Assembly: GCA_034401135.1 (NCBI GenBank) | Contig: JAWZSP010000001.1 | Span: forward strand, 620,001-684,000 | Length of the DNA: 64,000 bases | Direction of reading: 5' to 3' | DNA from: Volutella citrinella | Lineage: Eukaryota; Ascomycota; Sordariomycetes; Hypocreales; Nectriaceae | In this document: positions 18,638-52,681 of the stretch, one piece after another | How positions within the stretch are numbered: position 1 is the stretch's first letter | Layout of the letters: each line of letters starts with the position of its first letter | Translations under genes and position numbers: made by a program | Notes under the pieces: generated by a model | What the model was told of the DNA's origin: nothing | Databases searched by the model: none | What the model saw: only the letters and a program-made list of their open reading frames with translations

Positions 18638-19878
18638 CTACAACTTGGACCGTACACTCGAAACATCCAACACACCCCTCGCCAGCTGGGCCACCTCCTC
18701 TGCAATCCCCCAGCTGAGCTCGTAGCCGCGTCCCCCCGCGCCATACGCATGCACCACGCTCCGCAACCCACGCTCCGTCTCCCTCTGCTCCAGCTCGAGC
18801 CTCACGCCCCCGTCCCGCGCCGGCCGCCGCCCCACGACGTCCTTGATGACCTGGATCCCCGCGTCTCCGACGGCCGCCCGTACCGACGGCTGACCGCACG
18901 CTTCGGGGATGATGGCCTCTGCCGCGGCGAGCACCTGGCGCCGCGTGTCCAGCGACGGCTCGAGCTCCCAGTTGTTCGGCTCCTTTGTGCCGCCGATGAC
19001 GGTGCCGCCGTTGAAGGAGCGCGGGATGATGAAGCTCCATGAGCCGTCCTTTTTCTGCGTCGTGATTGTCTTGGAGGCGGATGTGAGGTTGGTGAGCACC
19101 GTCTGGCCTGCTGCGTGTTAGTCGTCTGTTCCTCGCTGGGCAATAACTCGTAGACCATCCTACCTCGAATTGGGAATGACTTTGGGTCACTGAAGCCAAC
19201 TCCACTGGCGTTGACCACCGTCGTGACGTTTGGGGCGAGGCTGAATGCCTCCCACTCGCTCCTGAGTTCTCGAGACACCGTCTTGCCGCCCTGCAGGACG
19301 AACTTGCGGAGCAAATTCGCGCAATACAGCGGCGCATTGATACAGTACGTCTGGTACTCGAACCCCAGCTTGACGCCGTCTGGCAGCTCATGCGCCTCAT
19401 ACTTTCGATACCCCGAGAGGCCCGTCTCCTCCGCGAAGGTGTCCGCGTCCTGGGCGTCGTAGTCTGCGCCGGGGGCCTCGAGGTACTCGATGCCGGGAAG
19501 CTGGCGGATGCCGGCCCACGGTTCCCGCTCGAGGTTCCGCGCAAGCTCGGCGGCTGTCGTCTTTAGCCAGCGAGCCTCGCGCCGGAGCTGCGGCGTGGAC
19601 CCGGGGATCGGGCGGACGTGGGCACCCGCCCACATGGAGGCGTAGTCGGCCGAGTGGGACACGGGGACGCCGGGAATCGACGTCGGCCACTCGCGGGACA
19701 CTATCACGACATTGGTCGAGGGGCGGGTTGTCTCACTCTCTGCTAGAAGCGATTGGATCTTGAGCGCAGAAGTGAGGCCTAGGATGCCGGCGCTGGTTGT
19801 CGATTAGTCTTTGTGCGAAGACCGTGGTGGTGGCAGATCGTACCCAATGATGACGACTGTAGATGGCGGTTGGCTCAT
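18638..19878 (-). CDS. D-amino-acid oxidase, peroxisomal
   Basis: Three exons on the minus strand (19844-19878, 19164-19792, 18638-19107) encode 377 residues. FAD-dependent oxidase that deaminates D-amino acids to 2-oxo acids, ammonia and hydrogen peroxide. The first intron splits the dinucleotide-binding motif; once joined it reads VVIIGAGILGLTSAL, with GAGILG at residues 12-17. Family landmarks follow: VVNASGVGFSDP, then GGTVIGGTKEPNNW, and the FAD-binding C-terminal signature RSVVHAYGAGGRGYELSWG, whose terminal part contacts the cofactor. The protein ends in Ser-Lys-Leu, a canonical PTS1 that directs it to peroxisomes. Start at 19878 gives MSQPPSTVVIIG, the expected short N-terminus. D-aspartate oxidase is the main alternative. 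Confidence 0.9.
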
Positions 19879-20299
19879 ACTTGCGAATGTCTGCAACGGT
19901 TGGATGCCTGGATAGGTGGCTGAATGGACTGATTGATGGGAGGATAGAACGGAGTGTCTCTCATACGCAGCATCTGCAATAAGTGCCTCTCGAGTCAAAG
20001 TCAAATACGAATGCCGGGTGACGGCGGGTGTGGGGTCCGATAGCGGGACTGTCCATTGTCGGCTCTCGTCGGCTGCCTCCGTCAATATGCAACGAGATGC
20101 CCACATGACTCCGAAGATGAGATGACAATGTTGTCAATACAATACATGGGTGCACCATGTCTGCCCCTCTCGCGACCAGAGGCTCTACAGAAATAGTCCA
20201 CATCATAGCCAACTGGTAACAGAACTTTACACATTAGGCATCCGCCACCAGACAGAATTAGAAGCTTGAAACAACACAATCCAACACCAGTTACAGACT
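19879..20299. other. Intergenic region, D-amino-acid oxidase upstream / NLR downstream
   Basis: About 420 bp that should contain the oxidase promoter and the NLR terminator region. No gene or clear motif was seen. Confidence 0.5.
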
Positions 20300-23200
20300 C
20301 TACAACTCCCAGACGCCCGAATCGCCATCGCCACCGTCGCTCTCAAAGTCATCAAAGTCCCTGAGGCCCCAGCCCGCGTCCGGGTCCACGCCAATCTTCT
20401 GCCCACTCTCTCCCCTGATGGCGCCTTGCCTCTGCAAATAATCCTGGATGTCTTCGTCCCTGTAGCTGGGAGACATAGTAAAGTCTAGTACCGTGTTGCC
20501 GTGCTTATTGCGGGCATTGACGTCGACGAGTCGCTTCTCCACGAGCCACTTGACGGCATCGAGGTGCCCGAACTTGGCCGCAGCATCAGCGCCGTGTTGC
20601 CCCATTTGTTCAGCTGTCCGGGGTCGATCTGGTTCACACGCAGGTCTTCCATTGATGGTAGCTTCTCCATGTCCTGCAACAGAGACAGGTGGCCGCCGCG
20701 CATGGGGGTCAAGAAGGCCGGTAGCCCGTCGTCTTCTCGGCTGCTCGGGTCTAGGATGACTTTCTCGCTACTGCTCTCTTTGAGAATCGTGTCGAATATG
20801 TCTTCCTCTCCGCTCATTGCCGCATAGCTCAGATACGATCTCCCGTTGACGGAGCCCAGGAAGTCGGCTCCCTGGTCAATCAAGTAGTTTGCAATGTCCT
20901 TGTAGCTCGGGTCTCGGTGGCAGCGGCTGAGAGCCCAGCTGAGAGCCGTTCCTTGGTTCCACGGAGCGTCAAGGCCCACCTCATGCTTGACGTTTTGCGC
21001 GTCTTTGTTCGCCCCAAACTGGACGAGGATCTGGACGCATTCAAGGCATCCAGCCTGTGACGCAGTGATCAATGGAGTTGCCCCATTTGCATCTGCCGCT
21101 TCCACCACCTTGCTGAACGTCTCGCGGTCGTTCTTCAGGAGCTGCATCATGATCTTCAAGGACTCGCTGTGCTTTGGTGACTTAGACGATGCGTGAGCAG
21201 CCCAGTGGAGGGGGTTGCTGCCCCATTTGCTTTGAATCCCCGGGTTGGCTCCTTGGTCGATGAGGAATTGGGTAATGTCAGGGAACTCGATGGCTCGGTG
21301 CAACGGAGTCGTTCCATTTTCCAGAGATCGAACGTTTATCAACTTCTTGTGGTCTGGTCCCTTGACATGGTTGACAAACAGCTCTACCAAATCTCGACGC
21401 CCTTTCCCAGCCGCCCAGTGGATCGGCGTCGTCCCCTTATTGTCCGCGGCAAAAGGACTCGCTCCGTGATGTAGAAGAGTCTCACAGCACTCCCTGCACG
21501 CGCCATCCTGTTGTCCAATGACGGTTCTGTGCAGGGCAGTCATGTCCTTTGAGTCTCGCATGTCGACATCTGCCCCGTTCCGCAGCAACAGTCGCAGGAG
21601 GGCCTTCTTCTTGAACTTGCCCGCATAGTGCAGTGGCGTTCCCCCATAGACGGTGGCGAAGTTCACATTTGCGTTGTACTTGATCAGGACGAGAGCAACA
21701 GCCACCTGCTTATCCTCGGTCAGGCTCTTCGAGATTGGGGTTCTAGCCACAAAGCAGATGGGGCTCTCTTGTAGTCTGTCTTTTGAGGGTGAGTTACAAT
21801 CAGCCCCGAGAAGGAGACAAATTTCTGCTGCAATGCTGTGTCCGCTCTTTGCGGCGGCGTGAAGAACACCGTTTCGTACTCTTTGGATCTCAAAATTGGA
21901 GTGGCTTTGCTCAAGCTCGATTTGGAGGAAGTCGGCCAGTTCGCTCATCCATTCGGCAAACAGAGGGTGAAATGGGCTTTTCGCAAGAGTGCTGAGCAGA
22001 TTCTTTACTCCTTTCAACTTTGATCCCGCAGAAACATGATCCTTCAAATGCTGCAGAGCGTAGACTGCCAAAGGGTAGTCGTTCATCAATGCACACAGGT
22101 CCTCCTGGCTTTTCTTGTCCATGGCTTTGCAGGTGTTCCGGATTTCTTGGGCCATCCTGGTCAAGGTTCCCACGCATGCTTTGCGCAAGACATTTTCTTC
22201 GTCCCCAAGCGGTGATTCTGCGGACTTGCTCTGCTTCAAGTTGCCCAGAAACACCCTTGCTGTGTCGTGGATGAATTCAACTGGGACGTGCTTAGTATTT
22301 ACAATAAATGAACAGTTGAGGTCTGCTTACCATGGACATCTGAGCTATGGGTAGTTGTTAAAAAGCCACCAGCGTAGCGTAAGAGATGGTCTGCTTGCTT
22401 CTTGAGCCGGAAGTCGTCCATGGGTCGATCGCTCGTCACATCCTTCCACACATACGCATCTCCAAACTCGTCCATTTTAAGGTTCCGTTTCATCTCCAGC
22501 GCAATTTGCAACGTACGTCGAGAGTATTCTTTCCGCGACTCTCGCTTTCCGTCAAATAGCCGTCCAAGAAGTTTGTGGTAAGCCTCTTCCAAGGATTGGG
22601 GCAGGCTCTTGAGGAACTCGTCAAACTTTGCCGCCGTCATGGTAGCGTCACTATCCGGGTTCTCGATCTCGTCCTTTACCATCTTGGTCCAGAGAAACAT
22701 GTTTTTGGAGGAGTTGACAATCTTATCCACATACCGTTGGACTTCAGCCTCATTGTACCCCCGGTCCAGAAGTCGAGGGCGAAGGAAGGATTCTGTGTAT
22801 AGCAAGATGTCATCCTTGTTCGACTTGTTTTGTGTGATTTCAAAAGATTTCAAGCTGGCAATGTGGTTCTGGATGCGGCTCTTCACCTCCCCAAGTCTGA
22901 CTGCTTGTCCTGAGATCAGTATCTTGAATCGCAATTTCCCTTCTTCTGGCGTGTTGAGGAACTTGGATAGAATATCTGCGCATTCCAAGTGTTCCGTGGA
23001 CTCGTCGATTCCATCAATGAGAATGTAAATCGTTTGGGCAATTGGGTGGCGCACCAATCCCTCGACAGTCCGGGTGAGCATATTCGCGGTCCAATCCTTT
23101 TCCGACCTGAGGTTTTCCTGTTGAAAATATGGGAAAAAGGAAACGTCTTGTCGCAATAGGTCGTGCAGGAGGGTTTTGAACATCGCGAGTGAGCTTCGTT

Positions 23201-26200
23201 GCGACGGATCCATAATGTGAAAATAGAAGGAGAGGAGTCTAACCGGCCGCTGAGACTCCATGTTCTTCTCACCGTTGTCCATTTTATCCTTCTCCTTTTT
23301 CTGTTCCTCTGCTTTTTGCTTCAGCATCGCTCTCATCCGAGTTTCCACGTGTCTCGTCAAGACAGATTTGCCGCAAGCGGGAATTCCAGAGATACAAAGT
23401 AGTGAATCGCTGTCCAAGTTCTCCCACTGACGTGTCATATTATTCTCCCAGAACCACTGTAGCGTTCCATTGAATGGCACGTCAATGTCGTTAGCCTTGC
23501 GAGACGCAGACGCTCCGGAAGGTTGAAGAGATCTTAGACAAGCTAACATTGTGAGCGATTCTCCTAACCAAACAGTAGTTGAGGGGGGGGGGGGGGGTTA
23601 AAATACCTTCAACACATGCTTTCTCGATACAATCTTCATGACTCAAGAGACCATTCAGGTACTGGCGCTGTGTGTGCGTGTAAAGGTATTTCACGCTGAC
23701 CAAGTCTTCACTATTCTCACTCACTTGCCGGCCCAGTTCTCGGAGGCAGTGCAGGATTCGTCCAAGCTCGGGCCCTTTCCTCAGGAACTCAATCTTGGAA
23801 ATAAGCACCATGATGTACACCGTTCTCTGCCTGGTACCTGGCGACTGATCCCTCGCTTTCAGGGCGTGGGCCAGTGTATATACGACAGCGTCGACTAGGC
23901 TTGTGCCCAACTGGTCTATTGAATGAATCAATGTCTCAGCGATGCTCTGGCTGCGTTCTCTCCCTTCTGTATCATCATCGGTTATCGAGATGGCATGCTT
24001 CATCAAGTCATAAATGACCTCGTTGCGTTTTGTAGTCAATAGGTCCTTTGGGACATCACTTCGTCGTTCAAAGCCTAAAATTAGGGGCAAAAGCGAGTCC
24101 AGAAAGAACTGAAACATCCGAAGGATAAGGGGCCCAGAGATGGTGTTTCCAGTCCAGAATCCGTTCATTGAGCCAGCTGTCTGGCTGAGACGTTCAAAGT
24201 CAAGGTGCAGGACTTGGAACTTCTCCTTCTTGCCGAATCGAACCAGTGGTCCGCACAAATTTGGCCAGAAGTCGTCGGAAGTGATGATTCGGAGTTCCAG
24301 GAATGAATTGGCATCCTTCGAAACCCAGTATTTGAAGTAGAGGTTTTCAAGGAGTCCAAAATACGCCGTCTCCTCGCCAGGCGTCTTTGCGTCCGGTTTG
24401 GGGTTCGCGCAGTGCGAAACCCGCGGATCCATCATCTCGCCAAAAGTATCTGATACCTTTGAATCGCACTCACCAAGTTTGATGATATCCTCCGGCAGAG
24501 GGGTTGTACGCTCGTCAAGCTGTCTCGACTCGTGGATCTTTTGCCACACGTCGCCCACGATGCTCCGATAAAGGCGGTCTTCGCTGCTAGAGAACTGCCA
24601 GTAATATACGGTTTCGTTGTCAGATTCCTGAGATATATCAGAATCTCTAGTCTCGGACGCCCCGTTGCTTTCGGCTTGGTCAGTGGGCATCAGGCATGGA
24701 ACCGGTACATGTATCTCGTTGGTCAATTCGTGAATAGCTCTGTTTTTCGGGTTACCCTGTCGTTTAATAGTCAGCGCTGGATAATCCAAAGCATCGGCTC
24801 ACTGAAGTTGATATTTTGCTGACGCGCAGGGGGGCCAAAAAGAAAAGACATACCATTGGAATTCGAAAGTTGTGATCTGAGGAGCTAAAATTGATGACTA
24901 GAATCGAGTGACAAGAATGCTACAGCCAGTTTAGTTTCGGGACATTGCAGCACAAAGTTCTCTACCGACCTTTGTTGATTCGTTCCGGAACTCTTCGAGA
25001 TGGCCCCAAAAATTGTCGACCAATTCTCTTGTCATGAGACCTGAATGGCTGGAGGGAGGAAACCCGTAAATTGATATGCGTGTCGAGTCAAATCCTTCAT
25101 TGGCGAGAAAGTCTTGAATCCACATGACTTCGGGAGAATATTTCCAGGAGTTGTATGGGTGGAATCGAGGGTGCTGAGGGCTTAAAATGATGATGCTGGG
25201 AGATGTTGTAAGAATCTTATCCATGCATGTGAAGGATACACGCAGTTGCTTGTTGACTTACTCTGTCTTCAAACCCAATGGGTGAAAAGGCTTTTGTCTA
25301 CTTCTCGAAAACAGAGACTTGACGAAGCGCGCCCCCCAGTTACTTTCAGGCTTTGCTTGAGGAACGTTCAAAATGGCCCTGTCAACTTCGGTGCTGTAGA
25401 GAGGAGTGATGCCGATGAAATCCAAGTCGACAGTTGCCAGAATTTGGCGTTGCTTTTCATCAAGCGTCATCGAAAACTCAAACTCCTTCCGGCTCTCGGT
25501 ACAAGGGAAGTCTTCTGGTGTGTAACACAAGCTGACGACAGCGGTTTTGTGCTTTCCGTGACTGGCGGCTGTGAGAACCTCAAATGGCGGCTGGTCATCC
25601 TGATACATCCAGCAATCAAAGGGCGGGAGTCTCTTCAGTCCCTCCTCCAAGTCATCTTTCGTTGTGCTTGTATCTAGATTCCGAAATCGATAGACACGGG
25701 CATCTGGCTGCAGTCTCTTTGATCTTTTCGTAGGATCCCTTTTTGCTGCACTTTTCTGATGTTCGACCATACTAAAGCCATCTTCCAGCAGCCACTGTCT
25801 TTGGATCTCCGGTGTCAGCATACTAGGATGCGTCTCCTTCGTTTGTACGGCTGGTGCGTTTTCGGCAGCGTTCTGGCTATCCGAGTGCTCGGCCTCCTTG
25901 TTGTTCTGTAAGGAGGCAAACTTATTCTCGCCAGCATAGTTTCTGGAGCCCGAGGGAATCGTTGAGCTACTTGAGTGATAATGAACCTCAAGCTTTTTAA
26001 TATTGTAGGCTATAGGGTCGAGACCATTAATCATGAGTGGTGCCAGGTTGTGTGACGATGCAAGGGGGTTTCTTACTGCGCTGAGAGTTGTCCGCGTTTA
26101 CATCCCGCGATTGGGAGCCTGCAAGATGAATTCCGCGACCCTCACTTATGTTTTGATCTTCCCCGGCGTTATTTTGGCGTCCGCCATGGTTGCTGGCGCT

Positions 26201-26224
26201 CGGCATCTCAAGGGTGCGTGTCAT
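20300..26224 (-). CDS. NLR: amyloid motif + degenerate hydrolase + NACHT + ankyrin repeats (frameshifted 3' end)
   Basis: Seven inferred exons: 26077-26224, 25262-26009, 24970-25195, 24854-24919, 23607-24756, 22331-23542, and 22280 downward. Exon 1 carries a Gly/Asn/Gln-rich motif (about residues 11-42: SNHGGRQNN, then QNISEGRGIH) shared with the two plus-strand neighbours. Residues about 100-400 resemble the SERAC1/SesB-like alpha/beta-hydrolase region of fungal NLRs, but LVINFSSSD stands where a lipase nucleophile elbow belongs. NACHT: P-loop GIPACGKS (832-839) and Walker B ILIDGIDE (about 953-960), preceded by the linker CLRSL. Ankyrin repeats run from about 1320. In the last repeat one G appears missing near 20578-20583, so the frame stops at 20485 (1781 residues) instead of 20300 (about 1843 if intact). 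Likely an intracellular receptor controlling cell death or allorecognition; the ligand is unknown. Confidence 0.8.
23583..23597 (+). repeat. Homopolymer of 15 G/C inside an NLR intron
   Basis: On the coding (minus) strand this is 15 C just after the splice donor of the 64-bp intron that precedes the NACHT exon (23543-23606). Length variation would not change the protein if the intron is spliced. Seen directly. Confidence 0.85.
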
Positions 26225-26849
26225 GGCCCGTCCCGACGCCGGCTCCCGCCGAGGGTGAAATTTGAGATGGCTTCAGTCCCCCAGTTTGGGTCGGGCACTC
26301 GCACCAGGGTTGGTGACGCATGCAGACCCTCAGGTCAGCCTATCAAGAAGCGGCAAGGTGCAGCGAGGGGCTTTGAAGTGCCAGTGTCAGCACCTTGCGT
26401 CGTTTCGATATTACGGCGACACATCAAAGCAGCGAGCCCAGGACAACGTCCAAACCCTCCATCAATGTGGGCACGCGCAGCAAAGGAGACGGAATTGATG
26501 AGCATCAGCGGGGTCGGGGCCCAAGAGCGATTAACTTCAGCTCGCCAGCCTCGTCGGGCTGGAGTAGCGTGGATTTCTCGTCGCCATCAGAGACCCTTGT
26601 CAAATTATGCAGTACAGCCGCACCGCCACATACGACTCCATGCAGCGTTTATTGGCTGAGCGGCTTTGCATCTTCGTCTTGGCTGCCTAAGCGGCTGGCA
26701 CCCAGGCTCTCAGCTGATCCAAATGTCTGACATCTCCCCGCTCGTAGCCGCCCAGGCGAATTCTCACTGCGAGCTTGAGAGGATCTTCTCTGTATATCCC
26801 TGTTGCTAAAACTAGCAAGGTTCAGACCTCGGTCTGCCATCTATGGACA
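26225..26849. other. Shared divergent promoter of NLR and SesB-like lipase
   Basis: 625 bp separates the divergent starts, so the receptor and a putative effector may be co-regulated. It includes a 9-bp perfect inverted repeat (26353-26361 and 26390-26398). No TATA element was recognised. Confidence 0.5.
26353..26398. promoter_or_regulatory. Inverted repeat in NLR/lipase divergent promoter
   Basis: GCAAGGTGC and its reverse complement GCACCTTGC are separated by 28 bp. A perfect 9-bp palindromic pair near the middle of a divergent promoter could be a dimer-binding site; chance is possible. No known factor is assigned. Confidence 0.3.
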
Positions 26850-27917
26850 ATGGACATTGTTCGGCGGCTGCTAGGGAAAAGCCCCAAAACCCAAGACGAT
26901 CAACCAGTCCCCGAGCTGCTGGAGCCCTTTCCGGATGGACTCAAAGTCCTCCACGACTGTCCAAACGCTGCAGTGGACATTTGCTTCGTCCACGGATTGA
27001 CAGGCAATCGGATGAGCACATGGACTGCACACGGACAACCGAAACCAAGCCCATGGCCACAGACTCTGATCCCTCCCAAGCTCAACAACTGCCGTATCTT
27101 GACATATGGATACGACGCCTACGTCATCGGTCGTCCGGTTGCATCAGAAAACGGGTTACTGGACCATGCGACTAATTTCCTGACCGACCTGACATCAGAA
27201 AGGGCTTCTGCAGACGCGCCGTCTCGTCCCATCATCTTTGTTGCCCATAGTTTGGGCGGCCTTGTGTGCAAAGAAGCCATCTTGCTCTCCCGAAACAACC
27301 CGGAACCGCATCTCCAACACATCTTTAGGTGCACCAAGGGCATTGCATTCATAGGGACACCTCATAAGGGGTCCTGGATGGCCGACTGGGCCAAGATTCC
27401 CGCCATGGGCCTTGGGATGGTCACGTCGACCAACAAGACGCTCCTGAAGGTGCTGCGGACGGACGATAAGTATCTGGAGTCGGTCCAGTCTCGCTTTTGG
27501 TCCATGGTCCGGGAACAGCAGAGGGACGGGAGGCTTCTCGAGGTCACCTGCTTCTACGAAGAACTCCCACTACCCAGGGTTGGAAAGGTCGTGTCAAAGG
27601 ACTCGGCCACGCTCCAAGGGTACACGCCAATCAGCATCCATGCAGACCACAGCAACATGGTCAAGTTCAGCTCCCCTGATGATAATGGGTTCAAGAGGCT
27701 GCTTGGGGAGTTGACCAGGTGGACCGCCGCCATCACGACATCACCGTCGCCATCGACAGAGTTGCAAAATACCAAGGATTCCACACCATGCTTTAATAAC
27801 TTCGGTGGAAATCAGTACAACAGTCCCGGTGGCACACAGAACATTAGCAGCGGCAATGGCATTCATTTCACTGGGGCAACCATCAATGGTTCGGTCAGTG
27901 TTGGGCAACAGAGCTAG
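26850..27917 (+). CDS. SesB-like alpha/beta-hydrolase (lipase) with C-terminal amyloid-type motif
   Basis: Intronless, 355 residues. The SesB/DUF676-like alpha/beta-hydrolase domain covers about residues 35-290. It shows ICFVHGLTGNRMSTW (oxyanion-hole region), CRILTYGYDA, nucleophile elbow VAHSLGGLVCKEA with S134, and IAFIGTPHKG. The catalytic His is probably H267 in IHADHSNMVKF. After a Ser/Pro/Thr linker, residues 315-350 form the motif FNNFGGNQYN, then GGTQNISSGNGIHFTGA. It is shared with the NLR N-terminus and the SesA protein C-terminus. In fungi SesB-type lipases with sigma or PP motifs are putative cell-death effectors activated by NLR amyloid templating; that role is inferred here. 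Start at 26850 (MDIVRRLLGK) is the first in-frame ATG; the frame upstream begins with TTG. Confidence 0.85.
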   Translation: MDIVRRLLGKSPKTQDDQPVPELLEPFPDGLKVLHDCPNAAVDICFVHGLTGNRMSTWTAHGQPKPSPWPQTLIPPKLNNCRILTYGYDAYVIGRPVASENGLLDHATNFLTDLTSERASADAPSRPIIFVAHSLGGLVCKEAILLSRNNPEPHLQHIFRCTKGIAFIGTPHKGSWMADWAKIPAMGLGMVTSTNKTLLKVLRTDDKYLESVQSRFWSMVREQQRDGRLLEVTCFYEELPLPRVGKVVSKDSATLQGYTPISIHADHSNMVKFSSPDDNGFKRLLGELTRWTAAITTSPSPSTELQNTKDSTPCFNNFGGNQYNSPGGTQNISSGNGIHFTGATINGSVSVGQQS

Positions 27918-28763
27918 CTCGGACGCTAAGTTAGAAGAATAGCATTTGGAAGAGATCTCAATTACTTGATAGCCTCGAATATGCAAACTGTTTTGATATG
28001 CTCGAATGCAGCACACGAAGCAGCATAAACATGCCAGTCCAAATGCTCATCTTCAAAAGTTAGTGACCTGGGGCCCTGGAGATGTTTTTGAAGGGCCGAG
28101 CGGCTCTGCGGTGACCGAGGGCGATGGTTTGGCGCTCTATGCTTAGCTGTAAAGAAGTCATTAATGCGGCGTGGTCGCCGCCTGTCAACGGGAAGCCTGT
28201 TTCGATCCCCGCTGTTTGATGCATGTCTGTGTCTTTAGACTCGGGGGCTTTCGTGCTATTCCAATGCATTTTAGTGAGATAATTATGGCTCAGAGTACTC
28301 TGTTGCTCTATCACAGCTTGTGTCTAGATTTGAAGCAGCGAAAAGCAATCACCATTGGTGTTTAGCGACAAACCAGCGATAGCCAAACATCTGGTGGCGC
28401 GTAGATCAGCCGCGCAATCCTGGATGATCATGCAATGTGACAGAAGGCCGTGGAACTACGTGGCACTGTAGACAGCTGAAAGCTGAAGGCTGCCGTCCGA
28501 GGCTGCCAAGCCACAGCGCCAACATACGTCTGGCTGTAGCCAATGGGGGGACTTGCATCCACGATCCCACCCCAGTCGTCAGATTTGTAAAATACCATGA
28601 AATGGTTCGCGGCCAGCTGCAAGAAGCGGGGTAGGCCGTTCAAGGGGGCCTTTCCATCGAGGATGAGAGCTCAAGGTGTCGGCAAATCTTCCTTTTTCAT
28701 TTGCGATACACGGAGCTCTCTTCATCGAAAAACCGAACCAAAGACTGAATTCCAAAGCCCAGT
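27918..28763. other. Intergenic region between SesB-like and SesA-like genes
   Basis: About 850 bp with no credible open frame. A segment at about 28160-28215 loosely resembles a tRNA-Asp anticodon arm, but arms do not pair (see rejected list). The rest presumably holds the SesB terminator and SesA promoter. Confidence 0.45.
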
Positions 28764-29387
28764 ATGGCAGCCATTATCCCCGCAAATCATCTCAAGTGGA
28801 CGAAAAAGAATCTCAACGCAGCCAAGGAAGAATATGAAGAGCTGAAAGACGACAAGTCCTTGAAAGAAGCCTTCCACGCATCCGGGGCCGGGCTATCCTT
28901 GATGATAGCTGCCCTCGAAGAGGCCAAGCCCATTGCAGCAGACGCCCCAGACAAGACCAACGACTCGCTGGAGCTGTGCAACGCAGAGACGGAAAAGATT
29001 TGCGAGATCTTCAAAGCAGTCGCGAGATGCTCCTCTGGCGCAAGGATGGACAGCTACAAGGCTGCCGTGGGCAAATTCGGCAAGGGGCGGCTGATCGAGC
29101 TGCTCGTCGCAGCCGTCATGAGCCAAATCGTGGCCGTTTCCGATGACCTCGGGATTCCTGCAGAGAACAAGGAGCAGCTTGGCAACGCGATCAAGAAGCT
29201 CGCGGAGCTGGATCCCTCCTTGCCCCAGGAGCAGGGAACCAATATCTTTCAGAACTTTGGCGAGAATCAGTACAACGCTCCGAACGGCACGCAGAATATC
29301 AGCAACGGCGACGGCATCTACTTTACGGGAGCCAAAATTACTGGCAATGTCAGCAACTATGCTCCACCTCCGAAGAATGAGAAGTGA
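28764..29387 (+). CDS. SesA-domain protein with C-terminal amyloid-type motif
   Basis: Intronless, 207 residues. Residues about 10-130 are all-helical and match the SesA / 'N-terminal domain on NACHT NTPases' family: EEYEELKDDKSLKEAFHASG, then LCNAETEKICEIFKAV, SYKAAVGKFGKGRLIELL and a closing helix. The tail (161-197) is IFQNFGENQYN, then GTQNISNGDGIYFTGA, nearly the same motif as the SesB-like tail (both share NQYN, GTQNIS, FTGA). SesA proteins are linked with NLRs in Nectria haematococca sesA/sesB/het-eN. The domain is probably a membrane-active or death-fold effector when templated; this is inference. It follows the lipase on the same strand, about 850 bp away, so it is separately transcribed. 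Confidence 0.82.
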   Translation: MAAIIPANHLKWTKKNLNAAKEEYEELKDDKSLKEAFHASGAGLSLMIAALEEAKPIAADAPDKTNDSLELCNAETEKICEIFKAVARCSSGARMDSYKAAVGKFGKGRLIELLVAAVMSQIVAVSDDLGIPAENKEQLGNAIKKLAELDPSLPQEQGTNIFQNFGENQYNAPNGTQNISNGDGIYFTGAKITGNVSNYAPPPKNEK

Positions 29388-31022
29388 GGGTCCTTGGGGC
29401 ACACGGCTAGCTAGGGTTAGGGACAGTATGGTCACATTAGTAGTAGTTGGGATTAGACGTTACAGTTAGTGTCAAGTGCTGAGGCTAGGTAGTGTTCTGA
29501 ACGAGGGTTAAGAGTCATGCCCTAGGGATGAAGATGAAGTTGGGCATTGGGATTGGCATGTTTAGAATGCTTCATGCGGCATACTGGTATTGATGTTTGT
29601 TTTCGGCGAAGACCGCGCAGTCAGTAGGCAAAGGCTACACGGAAGGAAGAGGATGCACAATATTGAGAGCAAATTATTCCAATACTCCAATGCTATCTAT
29701 AGTTAATGTGGTATCAAGTAAGCAATCAAGTCAATCACACGCCTTCTACACTTAAGAATTAGCTCCCTGTTGTTTCTGCCTCGCCCCCCTGTTAAACTGG
29801 CTGAGTCGAGCCTCGTCCACCTTGTCAGAGATACAGTGAGAAATAGACTGACAATTGCTTTTCCACACTGTACGTGGGTAGGAAGATGGCAAGGACGGGC
29901 AGAGTTGTCGACGGACTTGCTCCTCCAACAAGACAATTTAATGCATCCCTGACTTCGTCTGGCATTACACATTCACCGCATTTGTTCTTTGAGCCTCGTC
30001 CGACTTGCGTTCCAGAACCTGTCTAGGGTAGGCATCAAGGGGACGATGCCGACCCGCCCGCCCTTGCTACAGTGCACGATTGCATCACAGGAATAGGTCG
30101 AGAAGCCTTGGCTGGCTGGGATCGGCGCCGTCTGCTGCCGGCCTGTGGAGCCGGGACTGGGGACGGCCGGTGCCGACGCGCGGTGAGCGGAGGTGGTCAC
30201 AGCCATTCCAGGGAAGCTGGGACGACTGAGGCGACACCGAGGGTCCGGCGTGGTGTTGCAGTACATTAGTAGCAGGGACAGCTGTGTGCGGCCCAGGCAC
30301 CAACTGCGACACAACGATGGTTCTCCAAGTGATACCGTAGCGCTGCTGATGGATAGCACAAAGGCAGTGTAGATTATTCTCGAATTGTTCCGTCGTCGAC
30401 ACCCTTATGCGGTAGGGTCCGCCACATCACATCGCATCACTGTGGCTGCAGCGATCATCTGTAGTGGCCGTCACCATCTCCAATCGCAGATGCCCCTGTG
30501 CCAGCCTCCAGGAACCCGAGCAATTCTCCAAGGGAGGGGCCGCCCTCGCATCCCGAACCAGGGAATAAATTGGCATGACGTCTCTGACATGCCGGGAACA
30601 GAACACGTTGCGGAGCCTCTCGTCGGGCTGGGCCCCGTCTGATTATTCATGGTGACCTCTGATTGTCTGAGCAACTCTCGCTAGGTTGGTCTGGGGGCAA
30701 AACTTGGAAATAAGCAATCGCTGATTGGCTGGTGGGATGGTCAGCCAGGAACGTGGCCAATGGGAGAGCAGATAATTACTGCTCACCAGCCCCGGAAACT
30801 ACGCTACTGTGGCGGACTGCGACGTCTTTAGAGTTCGGTGGGGGCTGTCCATCGAGTACAAATAAGTTGCCATGGCCGTCCGATGCTTTGGACTTGCTAA
30901 TCACCATCAATCGAGCCTGAGTTTCACTAGAAAAGCACTGTCTTTCACTCTCAAATCACTATTTTCGCTTCCGCAAACGCTCACCAAAACACCACGCAAC
31001 ACCACCACCAACCACCGTCACC
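29388..31022. other. 1.6-kb intergenic region
   Basis: Between the SesA-like gene and the metallothionein. Open frames overlap on both strands without domains or consistent codon pattern. The last 150 bp is the CT-rich leader of the metallothionein. Confidence 0.45.
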
Positions 31023-48656: not shown

Positions 48657-50543
48657 CTACGCGATATACATGATGCCGGTACAGTCTCTGCTCCCTGTCA
48701 GCTCATCCATCTCCCCGGGCCGCATCTTCAGCAGCCCGCAACGCTGGTAGATCTCTGCATCCTGACCACCCCGTTGTAGCACGAGCCAAATATCCTCATC
48801 TTCTCCATTTCGAAAAACAGCTTTCCGCAGGGCCACCCGTATGCACCGTGAAGGCGTCCTTTGTTGCCGCGCATGTTCCACGTCTGGAATGTACGTGAAC
48901 GCAGATTGCGGGAGTAGTCGATCCCCACTGTCGCCAGCTATGGAAAACGTAGCCTGGCCTTCGGAGTCTAGTGTCACTGCAACTTCCAGTATTGTTCCAG
49001 AAAGGCAAAGCACACCGCCCAGCACCTCGCCAAACTCGTCGCTTCCTGGCAGCAACTCACACGCGGCATCGATGGGTACAGCCAGCTCTTCCGTGGACAT
49101 GGCCTCGTCAAACGACACCTGTGCGAGAACAGACGCCCATGACCACGAAGGGATACGTGCGAGTCGCTCTGTTCCCTGCACAGGACCTCTCCTCTCCCAC
49201 AACAAGTCGCGAACTAGATTCTGTTTCCACAAGCCGGCGAGATATCCACCAGGCAAGAACATGGCAAACCTCTTTGCGGCGCCAGATATCGCAGGCAGTC
49301 TGTCCTTGGAGTACGTCAATCCCAGCCGCGAGTATTCCATCACGAGACGATGCCACTGCAATGCGAGTTCGGATCTTGACATGCGTGAAAGCACCGTTTC
49401 ATGTAATTGATCCTTGTTGAACGGCTCATGTCCTGGTGACCAGAGGAACCGGATGCAGCCACACTCGCAGGTGGTCTGGTCCATGCATTCCCAGACGAGC
49501 TCCTCGGAAAGGAAATGAACAACACGAGGAGCTAGCAGCCGTTCTTGCAGAGCCCACGCGCGGCCAAGCAAGGGGACAGAACCTTGCACATGTCCGTGAG
49601 CAAGTGTTTTTCGCGCATGCACGCGGTATGGGGAACGGCCGTCTGCATGCAGTGTTTCGATGGTCTGGAACGTGTGACAATCTGGAGACTTCCCAACGAG
49701 GCCGTAGCTATCCCCGGAAGCAGCTGAAGCAGCGATGGTGAGCAGGCTGTTGGCGTAGATGGATGCCATCTGTGCAGACTCAACCCGCCAGTCCTCGCTC
49801 GAGTCCTGCACAATACACAGAGAGTCAATCCACAAGTACTTGATCCCGAGAGCCGATACCGTTGAGGCAGCATCCTGGAATACCCTGGGCATGTCTTGGA
49901 ATTGTATCCTGTTCTGATGCTGTTCAATATTGTGCGAGGTCGTCATGAGCGTTTGGGCTGCGCCCCAGCAATGGCTAAGACACGCATACGAGCCTTTCTC
50001 GCCAGGTTCAGGGCAGTGGATGCGGACGTTTCCTAGGTCACTGACATCAAGTAGCCGGGTAGGGAGCGCAGTAGACGCAGTGTATGGGCAACCGTGGCTC
50101 GTGGTACACATGTTGAGCCAGCCCTGGATGGCTAGGCGGGCAGCCTCGGAGCCCGTGTCTCCAGAGATGTCCATCGGCATCTCGCCATGCTTGGAGGCAA
50201 TCCACGAGATGGGAGAATCTGCAGCACGAAGTCGGTCAGTGGTGGTCCATCTCGTGAGAAAGCACGAATTACCTGGAGCTGGAATCATGTCGATGCCAAA
50301 CAAATGCTCTCCTGAAATGCATGCACCGACGACGAGTCGCATTCCCAGGATCCGCGAAGTAGCCCAGCCGACAATGAGATCAGTCAGCGCAAATTCGCCG
50401 TCGTTGACGGCCACGACGACACGACCCAGCAGATGGCACGTGGCGCATGTCTCTGGCCGGGTCGCCAACAGATCTGCGAGCGGGATGCCATCGCTCAGGA
50501 CAACACTCTCAGCCAGATGCCCGCAGGTAGCGCAGTCCGGCAT
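48657..50543 (-). CDS. HET-domain (heterokaryon incompatibility) protein
   Basis: About 610 residues after removal of a probable 54-bp intron (50219-50272; GTAATT donor, CTGAC branch, CAG acceptor). The intron is in-frame, so the unspliced reading gives 628. The HET domain covers about residues 170-330: GSYACLSHCWG, then FQDAASTVSALGIKYLWIDSLCIVQD and WRVESAQMASIYANSLLTIAA. In Neurospora and Podospora, HET-domain proteins trigger cell death after fusion of unlike strains. The first residues contain CATCGHLAES and CATCHLLG, short Cys pairs seen in many HET proteins. The ATG at 50543 is the first in frame (the codon at 50546 is TTG). No amyloid motif was found at its ends. Confidence 0.88.
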   Translation of the reverse strand: MPDCATCGHLAESVVLSDGIPLADLLATRPETCATCHLLGRVVVAVNDGEFALTDLIVGWATSRILGMRLVVGACISGEHLFGIDMIPAPGNSCFLTRWTTTDRLRAADSPISWIASKHGEMPMDISGDTGSEAARLAIQGWLNMCTTSHGCPYTASTALPTRLLDVSDLGNVRIHCPEPGEKGSYACLSHCWGAAQTLMTTSHNIEQHQNRIQFQDMPRVFQDAASTVSALGIKYLWIDSLCIVQDSSEDWRVESAQMASIYANSLLTIAASAASGDSYGLVGKSPDCHTFQTIETLHADGRSPYRVHARKTLAHGHVQGSVPLLGRAWALQERLLAPRVVHFLSEELVWECMDQTTCECGCIRFLWSPGHEPFNKDQLHETVLSRMSRSELALQWHRLVMEYSRLGLTYSKDRLPAISGAAKRFAMFLPGGYLAGLWKQNLVRDLLWERRGPVQGTERLARIPSWSWASVLAQVSFDEAMSTEELAVPIDAACELLPGSDEFGEVLGGVLCLSGTILEVAVTLDSEGQATFSIAGDSGDRLLPQSAFTYIPDVEHARQQRTPSRCIRVALRKAVFRNGEDEDIWLVLQRGGQDAEIYQRCGLLKMRPGEMDELTGSRDCTGIMYIA

Positions 50544-52681
50544 CAAGAGAATGAATGAATTGGCAAGTCAATGCCGTTGGTGGGGGTTGGCAAGGTCTGA
50601 GTTTCCGCCCCACCAAAGTGTTGGCATCGATTGGGCTTAGCCAGGGCAAGGCGCAAGCCCGCCAGTCAGCTTGTTGGTCCGTCGCATTCCCAGCAATTAC
50701 CAAGGCAGGCAATTGCCGATGTCATCCGTTGGAGGCAGTTCCAACATCGGAATCCCACAGTACGCGGCTCGCAATGCCATGAATAGCATACAATTTTGGA
50801 CAGCTCCAGGATTTAACACACTGGAGCCATATATAGTAAGGGGAATTTAGCACCTTGCTCAAGCCTGAATGGGGCGTTGTAAAAATGTTGACAAATATCT
50901 TGAAGCTCAAAGCAAGTGTGTGACGTGTTGGTTTGATTTCGAAAGCAACGCGGATGGAAATGGCAAAGATGCCTGGCGCGTGTGGATGAGACAGTAGTTT
51001 TCATGGCATCCACGGATGGAAATAGAGAGGTGGACGCCCCTGCACCTGCAAAGGGCTTGGGAAATATCCTCGGCTGGGGATCCATGAAGCTTGTTGCTTG
51101 ATATAAAACAGTCGAGAGGCAGCTTAGTCTATCATCGACAGCTGGTCCACTCTGTCGGCGAACCTCGTCAGTGCCGATGCTTTTGATGGTATTGGAGGCC
51201 ATTCGCTCCACCCCCATCCCTGGACGGTCTTGTCTCTCCAACCATGGAAATAGTTACAGAGCCCCGTAGAAGGAGCAAAAGTCAACATCAGATTGTTAAA
51301 GAGCCATCTGCAATATATTCAATTGATCCAGCTAACGAACGACATCACATTTTGTGCTCCCTCCTCGGTATGGAGGCCGTAGCGCTCACGAAGATTTGCC
51401 CAGTTCCCAAGGGCCTTGGTTATCTTGCCCCAAACAGAATCTGCCTTGGTCTTGCGTTTGCGCGGCATGGCGGTTACATCGACTGCATTATCCTGTCTGG
51501 TGGCGCCGTGGCAGAAGGAGGAGGACGGTGATGCGTGTCTCAAGGCTCGGATGTCAGAACCTGACGTTAATGCACGGTGCGGAGCAAACGCACGTGTCCG
51601 AGCCACGCGAACCCGGATCAATGAACGGACCGAAGGTGGGCACAGACAAGGAAACCCGCCCACCAATCAGGAAGATTGTCACGCGGGGATTTGTTACGAT
51701 CACCGTGACAAGAGGATTGTCACCAGTGACAACTGTCACTAGGAAGTGATAAAAGGAAAACATAACTAGCCTAGTATATATACCCCTATTATAGTACGAT
51801 GAAGAGGACCAGCCTCTTCAGCTATCAATACAACTTGGTTACCGCAATCTACTTACCTATTACCAGACGTAACAATACATTTGTCTTACACACCGATCAA
51901 CGCTCAGCATTACGCCCTGGTACAATTGCTAACATAAACCCCAGTACGATTACTGCTGTTTATATAGTTGGAACCAGCCCGGTCGTCACATCGGACATCA
52001 AATGTTGCTGCCTTGTCTTCAAGGCTGCATTCCGGCAGCATCCTTCCTAAAACAGCTTAGACCGCATTGCTTTTTGCATCAGAGACCCGCCTGATGCTTT
52101 GTCTTGATTGGGCAGTGGACTAACAACTGCTCTGGTTCACACCGTCACAATCGGCGCGCATCCTTAGCAATGTCATTGCCAGAAATCCATGTGCTATTTG
52201 TTCTGAAATGCGTATTTCCTGTTGTTGCACTGTGAGTTTCCAACTCCAAGAGTTCGACACAGACCCAATCCACCGCCTCGATCCAACACACATATCACAT
52301 CGTTCTCATCTTCCCCTGCAGCGCATGGCACCGATTTCCCAATCCAAGCCTTCCCTCGCAGATGGCTCCCCAGCGACATCATCCAGAGCACGAAACCGTA
52401 CAGTTTCCAGTCGCATCTCCCAGAGACGTGGCCAAGTCTAACGGCAGATCAATCAGTGTTCTATCTTCGAAGCACCACCGAAGGGGCAACTCTCAACGCC
52501 TCGAACCGATTCATTGCCAATCTCTTCCTTGGGCAAGTTTATGGCATTCTTGACTTTGGGCCACATCGGCAGGAATAGTCTTCCGGGTCCTCACCTCGTC
52601 CCCACGCACCCTACGCACCCTACCGACACCATTGCCTTCGCGCCGACGGACGAGGCTTTATAAGTCTCTAGTACACACGAC
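50544..52681. other. 2.1-kb intergenic region with LTR-like segment
   Basis: Upstream of the HET gene. It holds a possible solo or truncated LTR (51692-51874) in its middle and otherwise short frames. The 52208-52578 frames overlap one another on the same strand and are not supported. Confidence 0.45.
51692..51874 (+). mobile_element. Putative LTR remnant (solo or truncated)
   Basis: 183 bp bounded by the inverted ends TGTTACG and CGTAACA, the TG...CA rule for LTRs. It has a TATATATA promoter-like core (near 51773-51780) followed by an ACCCC block and a TCTTCAGCTATCAATACAAC stretch, reminiscent of fungal LTR promoters. The flanking 5-mers differ (GGATT and ATACA), and no reverse transcriptase frame follows. 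A relic is plausible, but chance inverted ends cannot be excluded. Confidence 0.35.

Follow-up and report, generated by a model that had tools for sequence, protein, structure and literature searches.

In Nectria haematococca (Fusarium haematococcum), the genes sesA, sesB and het-eN of the s locus encode products that carry the sigma motif. SesA is required for producing sigma, and a Gly-to-Glu replacement near the SesA end abolishes sigma and is dominant in partial diploids (PMC516043). Mutations in SesB result in constitutive sigma with no growth alteration, and in one s* allele the reading frame is shifted 120 bp ahead of the SesB stop (PMC516043). Since the last 40 residues of the F. haematococcum SesB are the sigma motif, this allele should spare the hydrolase and change the tail only. 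Amyloid-type infrared spectra and Congo red aggregates are on record for a sigma peptide from Nectria (PMC8086366). Fibrils formed by the het-eN sigma peptide have been mentioned as unpublished data, and a review terms the sigma evidence indirect (PMC7889193). The locus described in this study consists of three adjacent genes of Volutella citrinella encoding a STAND/NOD-like receptor (NLR), a SesB-like lipase and a SesA protein, within a stretch of 64,000 nucleotides (C1:620001-684000, hereafter the window) of a 45.1 Mb genome in 26 contigs. Judged from its sequence, this locus is probably a sigma-type amyloid-signalling trio and the counterpart of sesA/sesB/het-eN. The trio, the sigma class, the NACHT-ankyrin receptor and the motif on a 5' exon are all already published for Nectria.

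An initial annotation had proposed three adjacent genes with a common short motif. Both the gene coordinates and the motif positions hold, as listed below.

26077..26224, minus strand: NLR exon 1, 49 residues, carrying the N-terminal sigma motif; GT-AG junction in phase
26009-25262, 25195-24966, 24897-24854, 24756-23607, 23563-22331 and 22280-20485, minus strand: NLR exons 2-7, predicted spliced model
26850..27917, plus strand: SesB-like lipase (alpha/beta hydrolase), 355 residues, assigned by SesB homology, active site and fold search
28764..29387, plus strand: SesA gene, 207 residues; PF17107 (SesA) 62.9 bits, cut-off 26.3
About 26096-26200, minus strand: candidate sigma motif at the NLR N-terminus, residues 9-43; NACHT_sigma 17.7 bits, below 27.6
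27792..27905, plus strand: sigma motif at the lipase C-terminus, residues 315-352; PF17106 44.8 bits
29247..29354, plus strand: sigma motif at the SesA C-terminus, residues 162-197; PF17106 30.1 bits

The NLR gene adjoins the effectors and gives 83.4 bits for the NACHT-type domain and 153.9 bits for ankyrins; it diverges from the lipase gene, with 625 bp between the predicted NLR start and the lipase start. A profile search for the sigma and PP motifs, as suggested in the initial annotation, was run. With the Pfam family NACHT_sigma (PF17106; cut-off 27.6 bits), the tails of the lipase and SesA exceeded the cut-off and were the sole matches to do so genome-wide. PF17046 (Ses_B/PP) had no over-cut-off match in the genome, its single match scoring 16.1 bits; within HMMER's filters, neither effector nor NLR exon 1 obtained a row for it at E<=10. 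Because both effectors pass the sigma cut-off and PF17046 finds no over-cut-off match in the genome, the class, which the annotation had left open, is assigned to sigma, an already-known class, and not to PP. The HET-s class was likewise rejected for the trio, as no PF11558 row was obtained and the sole genome match lies on another contig. The arrangement pointed out in the annotation, with the NLR motif N-terminal and the effector motifs C-terminal as in amyloid-templating systems, is supported by homology to the Nectria s locus. A fourth genomic sigma copy was looked for; none was convincing, the profile listing, besides the two effectors, one 15-bit match (E 1.75, C1:6524893) that was inspected as raw sequence only.

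Pairwise motif alignments were compared with shuffled sequences. The lipase and SesA motifs aligned with a score of 145 (shuffle maximum 70) and the lipase and NLR motifs with a score of 75 (shuffle maximum 60); neither value was reached in 20,000 shuffles. For SesA and the NLR the score was 51, which 2 of 20,000 shuffles reached (maximum 55). The alignment of all three copies contains 13 invariant columns, in register. By eye, and with reference to the published A and B submotifs, the lipase and SesA copies follow the order A-B-A, and the NLR copy retains the submotif order with residues lost. When the two effector tails were combined into a profile, the NLR exon ranked third among the 1526 open reading frames (ORFs) of the window (E 7.8e-6), directly behind both source effectors; the next ORF had an E of 5.1. 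When NLR exon 1 was searched against the 45-Mb genome, the one match listed apart from exon 1 was the lipase tail (E 0.0117); such genome searches with a sequence query score the best candidates only.

The kinship of the motif copies was explored with SesB homologues, of which 1348 were found at E<=1e-3 and the best 120 listed. A sigma tail was recognized by threshold in 74 of these 120; the other 46, with tail scores under the threshold, were dropped. The comparison with other species covers SesB tails only. A profile of the 74 tails returned the lipase, SesA and the NLR exon as the top three of the 1526 window ORFs (E 6.9e-13, 2e-9, and 0.0034, respectively). Pairwise alignment of the NLR motif gave scores of 75 for the local lipase and 51 for local SesA, and no score above 59 for the 74 homologous tails. 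Against a profile made from the two local effector sequences, the NLR motif reached 23.6 bits, compared to at most 17.8 bits against 300 random pairs of the 74. Two marks are common to the cluster. Column 10 is deleted in all three local copies and in 3 of the 74 homologous tails, and column 30 is Ile in all three local copies and in none of the 74 (Val in two); the combination occurs in 0/74. The NLR copy thus looks like a genuine, though eroded, sigma motif, and by these alignments it is closer to the local effector motifs than to the SesB motifs of other species. This likeness agrees with the report of Daskalov et al. (2012; PMC3321046) that extensions belonging to one cluster resemble each other more than those of orthologues do.

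The splice model of the NLR gene is a prediction, its exon borders having been picked by eye with the help of splice signals and the reading frame. It has seven predicted exons and one terminal stop at 20485, with 1782 codons including exon 1. The exon at 26077-26224, which the annotation had attributed to the NLR, is predicted to join in frame (26224-26077) to the remainder over a GT-AG intron (26076-26010) of 67 nt with branch-like sequences 17 and 24 nt upstream of its 3' end. For the intron 24965-24898, no branch-like sequence was found within the range checked. The codon usage of exon 1 is better in the chosen frame than in the other two frames of the same strand. An in-frame ATG at 26034 lies within intron 1 and could be a source of mis-annotation; the sigma region of het-eN is reported to have once been overlooked owing to an unnoticed 5' intron. 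The 43-nt predicted intron 23564-23606 (minus strand) contains a run of 15 C, an error-prone sequencing site. The following features belong to the C-terminal half of the receptor.

22911..23468, minus strand: NACHT-type NTPase domain (NPHP3_N), from about residue 805; PF24883 83.4 bits
20485..21650, minus strand, start approximate: ankyrin repeats up to the main-frame stop; Ank_2 153.9 bits, five stretches
20300..20767, minus strand: overlapping ankyrin-coding frame; Ank_4 32.0 bits

The NACHT domain contains a P-loop-like stretch, as judged by eye. The annotation had extended the NLR to 20300, which does not hold, as the ankyrin-bearing NLR frame ends at the stop at 20485 and the end at 20300 belongs to another frame. 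Since that other frame likewise codes for ankyrin, the ankyrin frame appears to change at about 20,600, and between 20485 and 20767 ankyrin sequence is coded in both overlapping frames. The change may be a real break or a sequencing error.

On the effector side, the lipase and the original SesB of F. haematococcum (P0028) share 67% identity; the best match of the lipase among the best 120 of the 1348 homologues is from Fusarium falciforme (70% identity). An alignment of the window protein with 47 of the 120 listed homologues shows Ser134 and His267 in all 48 rows, and at this level the Ser/His active site is intact. A structural model made from this 48-row alignment (mean predicted local distance difference test, pLDDT, 69.9) retrieved alpha/beta hydrolases from the PDB, with 313 matches at E<=0.001; the best was a thioesterase (E 9.2e-9, TM-score 0.40 by query and 0.53 by target). 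By sequence, chance-level matches only to solved structures were obtained for the lipase (E 0.36 and 0.48) as well as for SesA (E 0.15 and 0.39). In a SesB tree of 41 rows (the window protein, two same-genome paralogues and 38 of the 120 listed homologues), the window protein groups weakly (81/53) with two Pochonia SesB proteins and has a long terminal branch of 0.6 changes per column, compared to a median of 0.24. For SesA, a relationship to HeLo-like cell-death domains has been published.

The closest lipase paralogue in the same genome (C5:648622) is 60% identical over residues 26-291 and has one in-frame stop. It is located 200 bp upstream of a NACHT-type match (C5:649617) that also has one in-frame stop (region C5:643000-652500). 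These stops may be introns or decay; the arrangement is in cis, of the kind that Daskalov et al. describe.

Several observations weigh against the assignment as a sigma trio. As the annotation had remarked, the NLR copy keeps fewer of the shared residues. With 17.7 bits for the 49-residue exon and 16.0 bits for the 81-residue frame, it remains under the Pfam cut-off, it is absent from the genome-wide PF17106 profile listing, and it is without near-fixed residues, e.g., Glu in column 20 where 70 of the 74 homologous tails have Gly. With a profile of the 75-residue tails of all 120 homologues, the NLR exon came fourth (E 0.099), below an unrelated ORF at 1094-1327 (E 0.018). The SesA tail is not among the listed matches of the genome search with NLR exon 1, and the codon usage of this exon (-0.009) is no better than that of one antisense frame (0.012). 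NLR residues 1-780, searched against a large protein database, gave 0 of 6123 candidates at E<=1e-3, and the SesA protein search gave 0 of 250 at the same threshold; the single-sequence model of SesA was uninformative (pLDDT 38.3). The sigma-like peptide of a Coleophoma NLR is reported apart from three clearly aggregating peptides (PMC8086366), so receptor-side copies need not all behave alike. Furthermore, the receptor may be impaired, as its frame changes inside the ankyrins.

This last point leads to a different explanation, according to which the SesA/SesB pair still works and the NLR, having lost its templating motif or its sensor, signals no more. The erosion of the NLR motif and the ankyrin frame change near 20,600 would fit such a decay, the in-frame ATG at 26034 could start a sigma-less receptor, and Podospora het-s strains are reported to have inactivated nwd2. 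However, the spliced frame runs uninterrupted for 1782 codons, the ankyrin frame change apart, the NACHT domain is retained, and the NLR motif still has both cluster marks; the frame change itself may be a sequencing error. We regard a decayed receptor as unlikely, though deserving of some weight.

The shared motif might also be a non-amyloid docking tag that merely assembles the three proteins. Amyloid formation by these proteins, and templating from the NLR to the effectors, are inferred from the family, which equally weighs against the sigma assignment, and the tail of the lipase model consists of two short strands only, at low confidence. Still, the Nectria sigma peptide is amyloid-like in print (PMC8086366) and het-eN fibrils have been mentioned, albeit as unpublished, and a mere docking function seems quite improbable. 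That the NLR copy reflects chance or a common Gly/Asn/Gln-rich composition, as its low-complexity sequence, its sub-cut-off Pfam score, its SesA score below the shuffle maximum and its fourth rank with one profile might suggest, is scarcely credible, given that no shuffle reached the lipase-NLR score, that its best listed partner genome-wide is the neighbouring lipase, and that the three copies have private marks and 13 invariant columns in common.

Some 760 residues separate the end of the sigma motif (about residue 43) from the start of the NACHT domain (about residue 805). No Pfam family was detected in this middle part, except one 13.1-bit, sub-cut-off match to an unrelated viral family, and residues 51-800 found self matches only in the own genome at E<=0.1. 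One stretch is weakly SesB-like.

25048..25161, minus strand: weak SesB-like alpha/beta-hydrolase stretch at NLR residues 311-348 (approximate); nucleophile motif absent

A same-genome SesB-like profile scored 10.8 bits against NLR residues 281-400, compared to 8.3 bits for the best of 5000 shuffles, and ranked this frame second among the 1526 window ORFs (E 0.013), with the lipase itself first. It is possible that the stretch is a hydrolase remnant. About 38 aligned residues, an hhalign probability of 7%, a best E of 0.26 for the NLR middle in tblastn searches against 18 loci, a best phmmer E of 0.02 and the lack of the usual nucleophile motif all weigh against it. A further-reaching proposal is that the receptor is an intermediate of both NLR designs, combining a sigma motif (in trans) with a dead SesB-hydrolase remnant of the type of its neighbour (in cis). 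We consider this doubtful; if true, it may show how receptor and effector separated from a fused lipase-NLR. Alternatively, the remnant may serve as a built-in decoy. No report of a hydrolase remnant in sigma-motif receptors was found in the open-access literature searched, which does mention four NLRs that combine a HeLo-like domain with sigma (PMC9815663). The eroded receptor motif and the possible remnant bear on the question of how cis and trans NLRs interconvert.

For the sigma trio, the following course can be envisaged. Ligand binding to the ankyrins would lead the NACHT domains to oligomerize, as expected for the family, and the crowded sigma motifs of the NLR would form a cross-beta seed. 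This seed would convert the sigma tails of SesA and SesB, upon which SesA would act at membranes and SesB, as an esterase, would alter lipids. Mutual conversion of the tails may allow the state to spread through the cytoplasm even once the trigger has disappeared. The genetics in Nectria lead to the expectation that SesA carries the self-propagating state and that SesB provides both a growth-arrest output and a brake on that state. The annotation had interpreted the two effectors as parallel outputs of one trigger. This is doubtful, as the requirement for SesA and the behaviour of SesB mutants in Nectria suggest mutual regulation; since SesA is needed for sigma and SesB mutations make sigma constitutive there, the effectors look interlocked and not independent.

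SesA is flanked by an inverted repeat.

28014..28055, no strand assigned: inverted-repeat arm 3' of the lipase gene, partner 29535-29576
29535..29576, no strand assigned: inverted-repeat arm 3' of SesA, 42 nt, 81% complementary to 28014-28055

Its local score of 44 exceeded the maximum of 34 in 1000 dinucleotide shuffles. One arm searched against the genome at E<=1 found only itself; because even the partner arm was not listed, weaker copies could be missed. Symmetrical inverted repeats are described for the Nectria Ses locus, where SesA and SesB are on opposite strands (PMC516043), so the SesA segment may have flipped.

Elsewhere in the genome, 97 NACHT-type (NPHP3_N) rows were found at E<=1e-3, some representing parts of the same gene. 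With two sigma effectors, no PP and one HET-s match beside these 97 rows, sigma signalling is, according to these profiles, confined to one locus among many receptors. A HET-s-type prion domain at C3:1842439-1842633 (93.3 bits) represents a second amyloid-signalling class; it lies few kb from a NACHT-ankyrin NLR with seemingly near-identical ankyrin repeats (C3:1840000-1849900). In the window, a HET-domain gene (48657-50567, minus strand, 97.1 bits) is located about 20 kb from the trio. No Rfam match was found in positions 19000-31000 of the window at gathering thresholds.

Compared to systems already described, the locus resembles HET-S/NWD2 of Podospora anserina in that an NLR there templates an adjacent effector, but that system uses the HET-s motif and a single HeLo effector. 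HELLP/SBP/PNT1 of Chaetomium globosum likewise joins a single NLR to two effectors, including a putative lipase. Its motif, however, is PP, for which the genome studied here has no over-cut-off match. The s locus of N. haematococca has the same three gene types, including the NACHT-ankyrin receptor (PMC3321046); sigma is at the N-terminus of the receptor, encoded by a separate 5' exon, and at the C-terminus of each effector. For this comparison, sequences were compared for SesB only, and het-eN and Nectria SesA are likened by published description. It differs in that SesA and SesB are on opposite strands there and on the same strand here, and in that the receptor of the present locus has an eroded motif and the sigma-NACHT middle part without detected relatives. 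To the known systems, this locus adds a clear sigma trio with a long-branched SesB and cluster-private motif changes, which render motif co-evolution, and hence the specificity of cross-seeding, directly testable. The expectation is that the local motifs seed one another and are less effective at seeding Nectria motifs.

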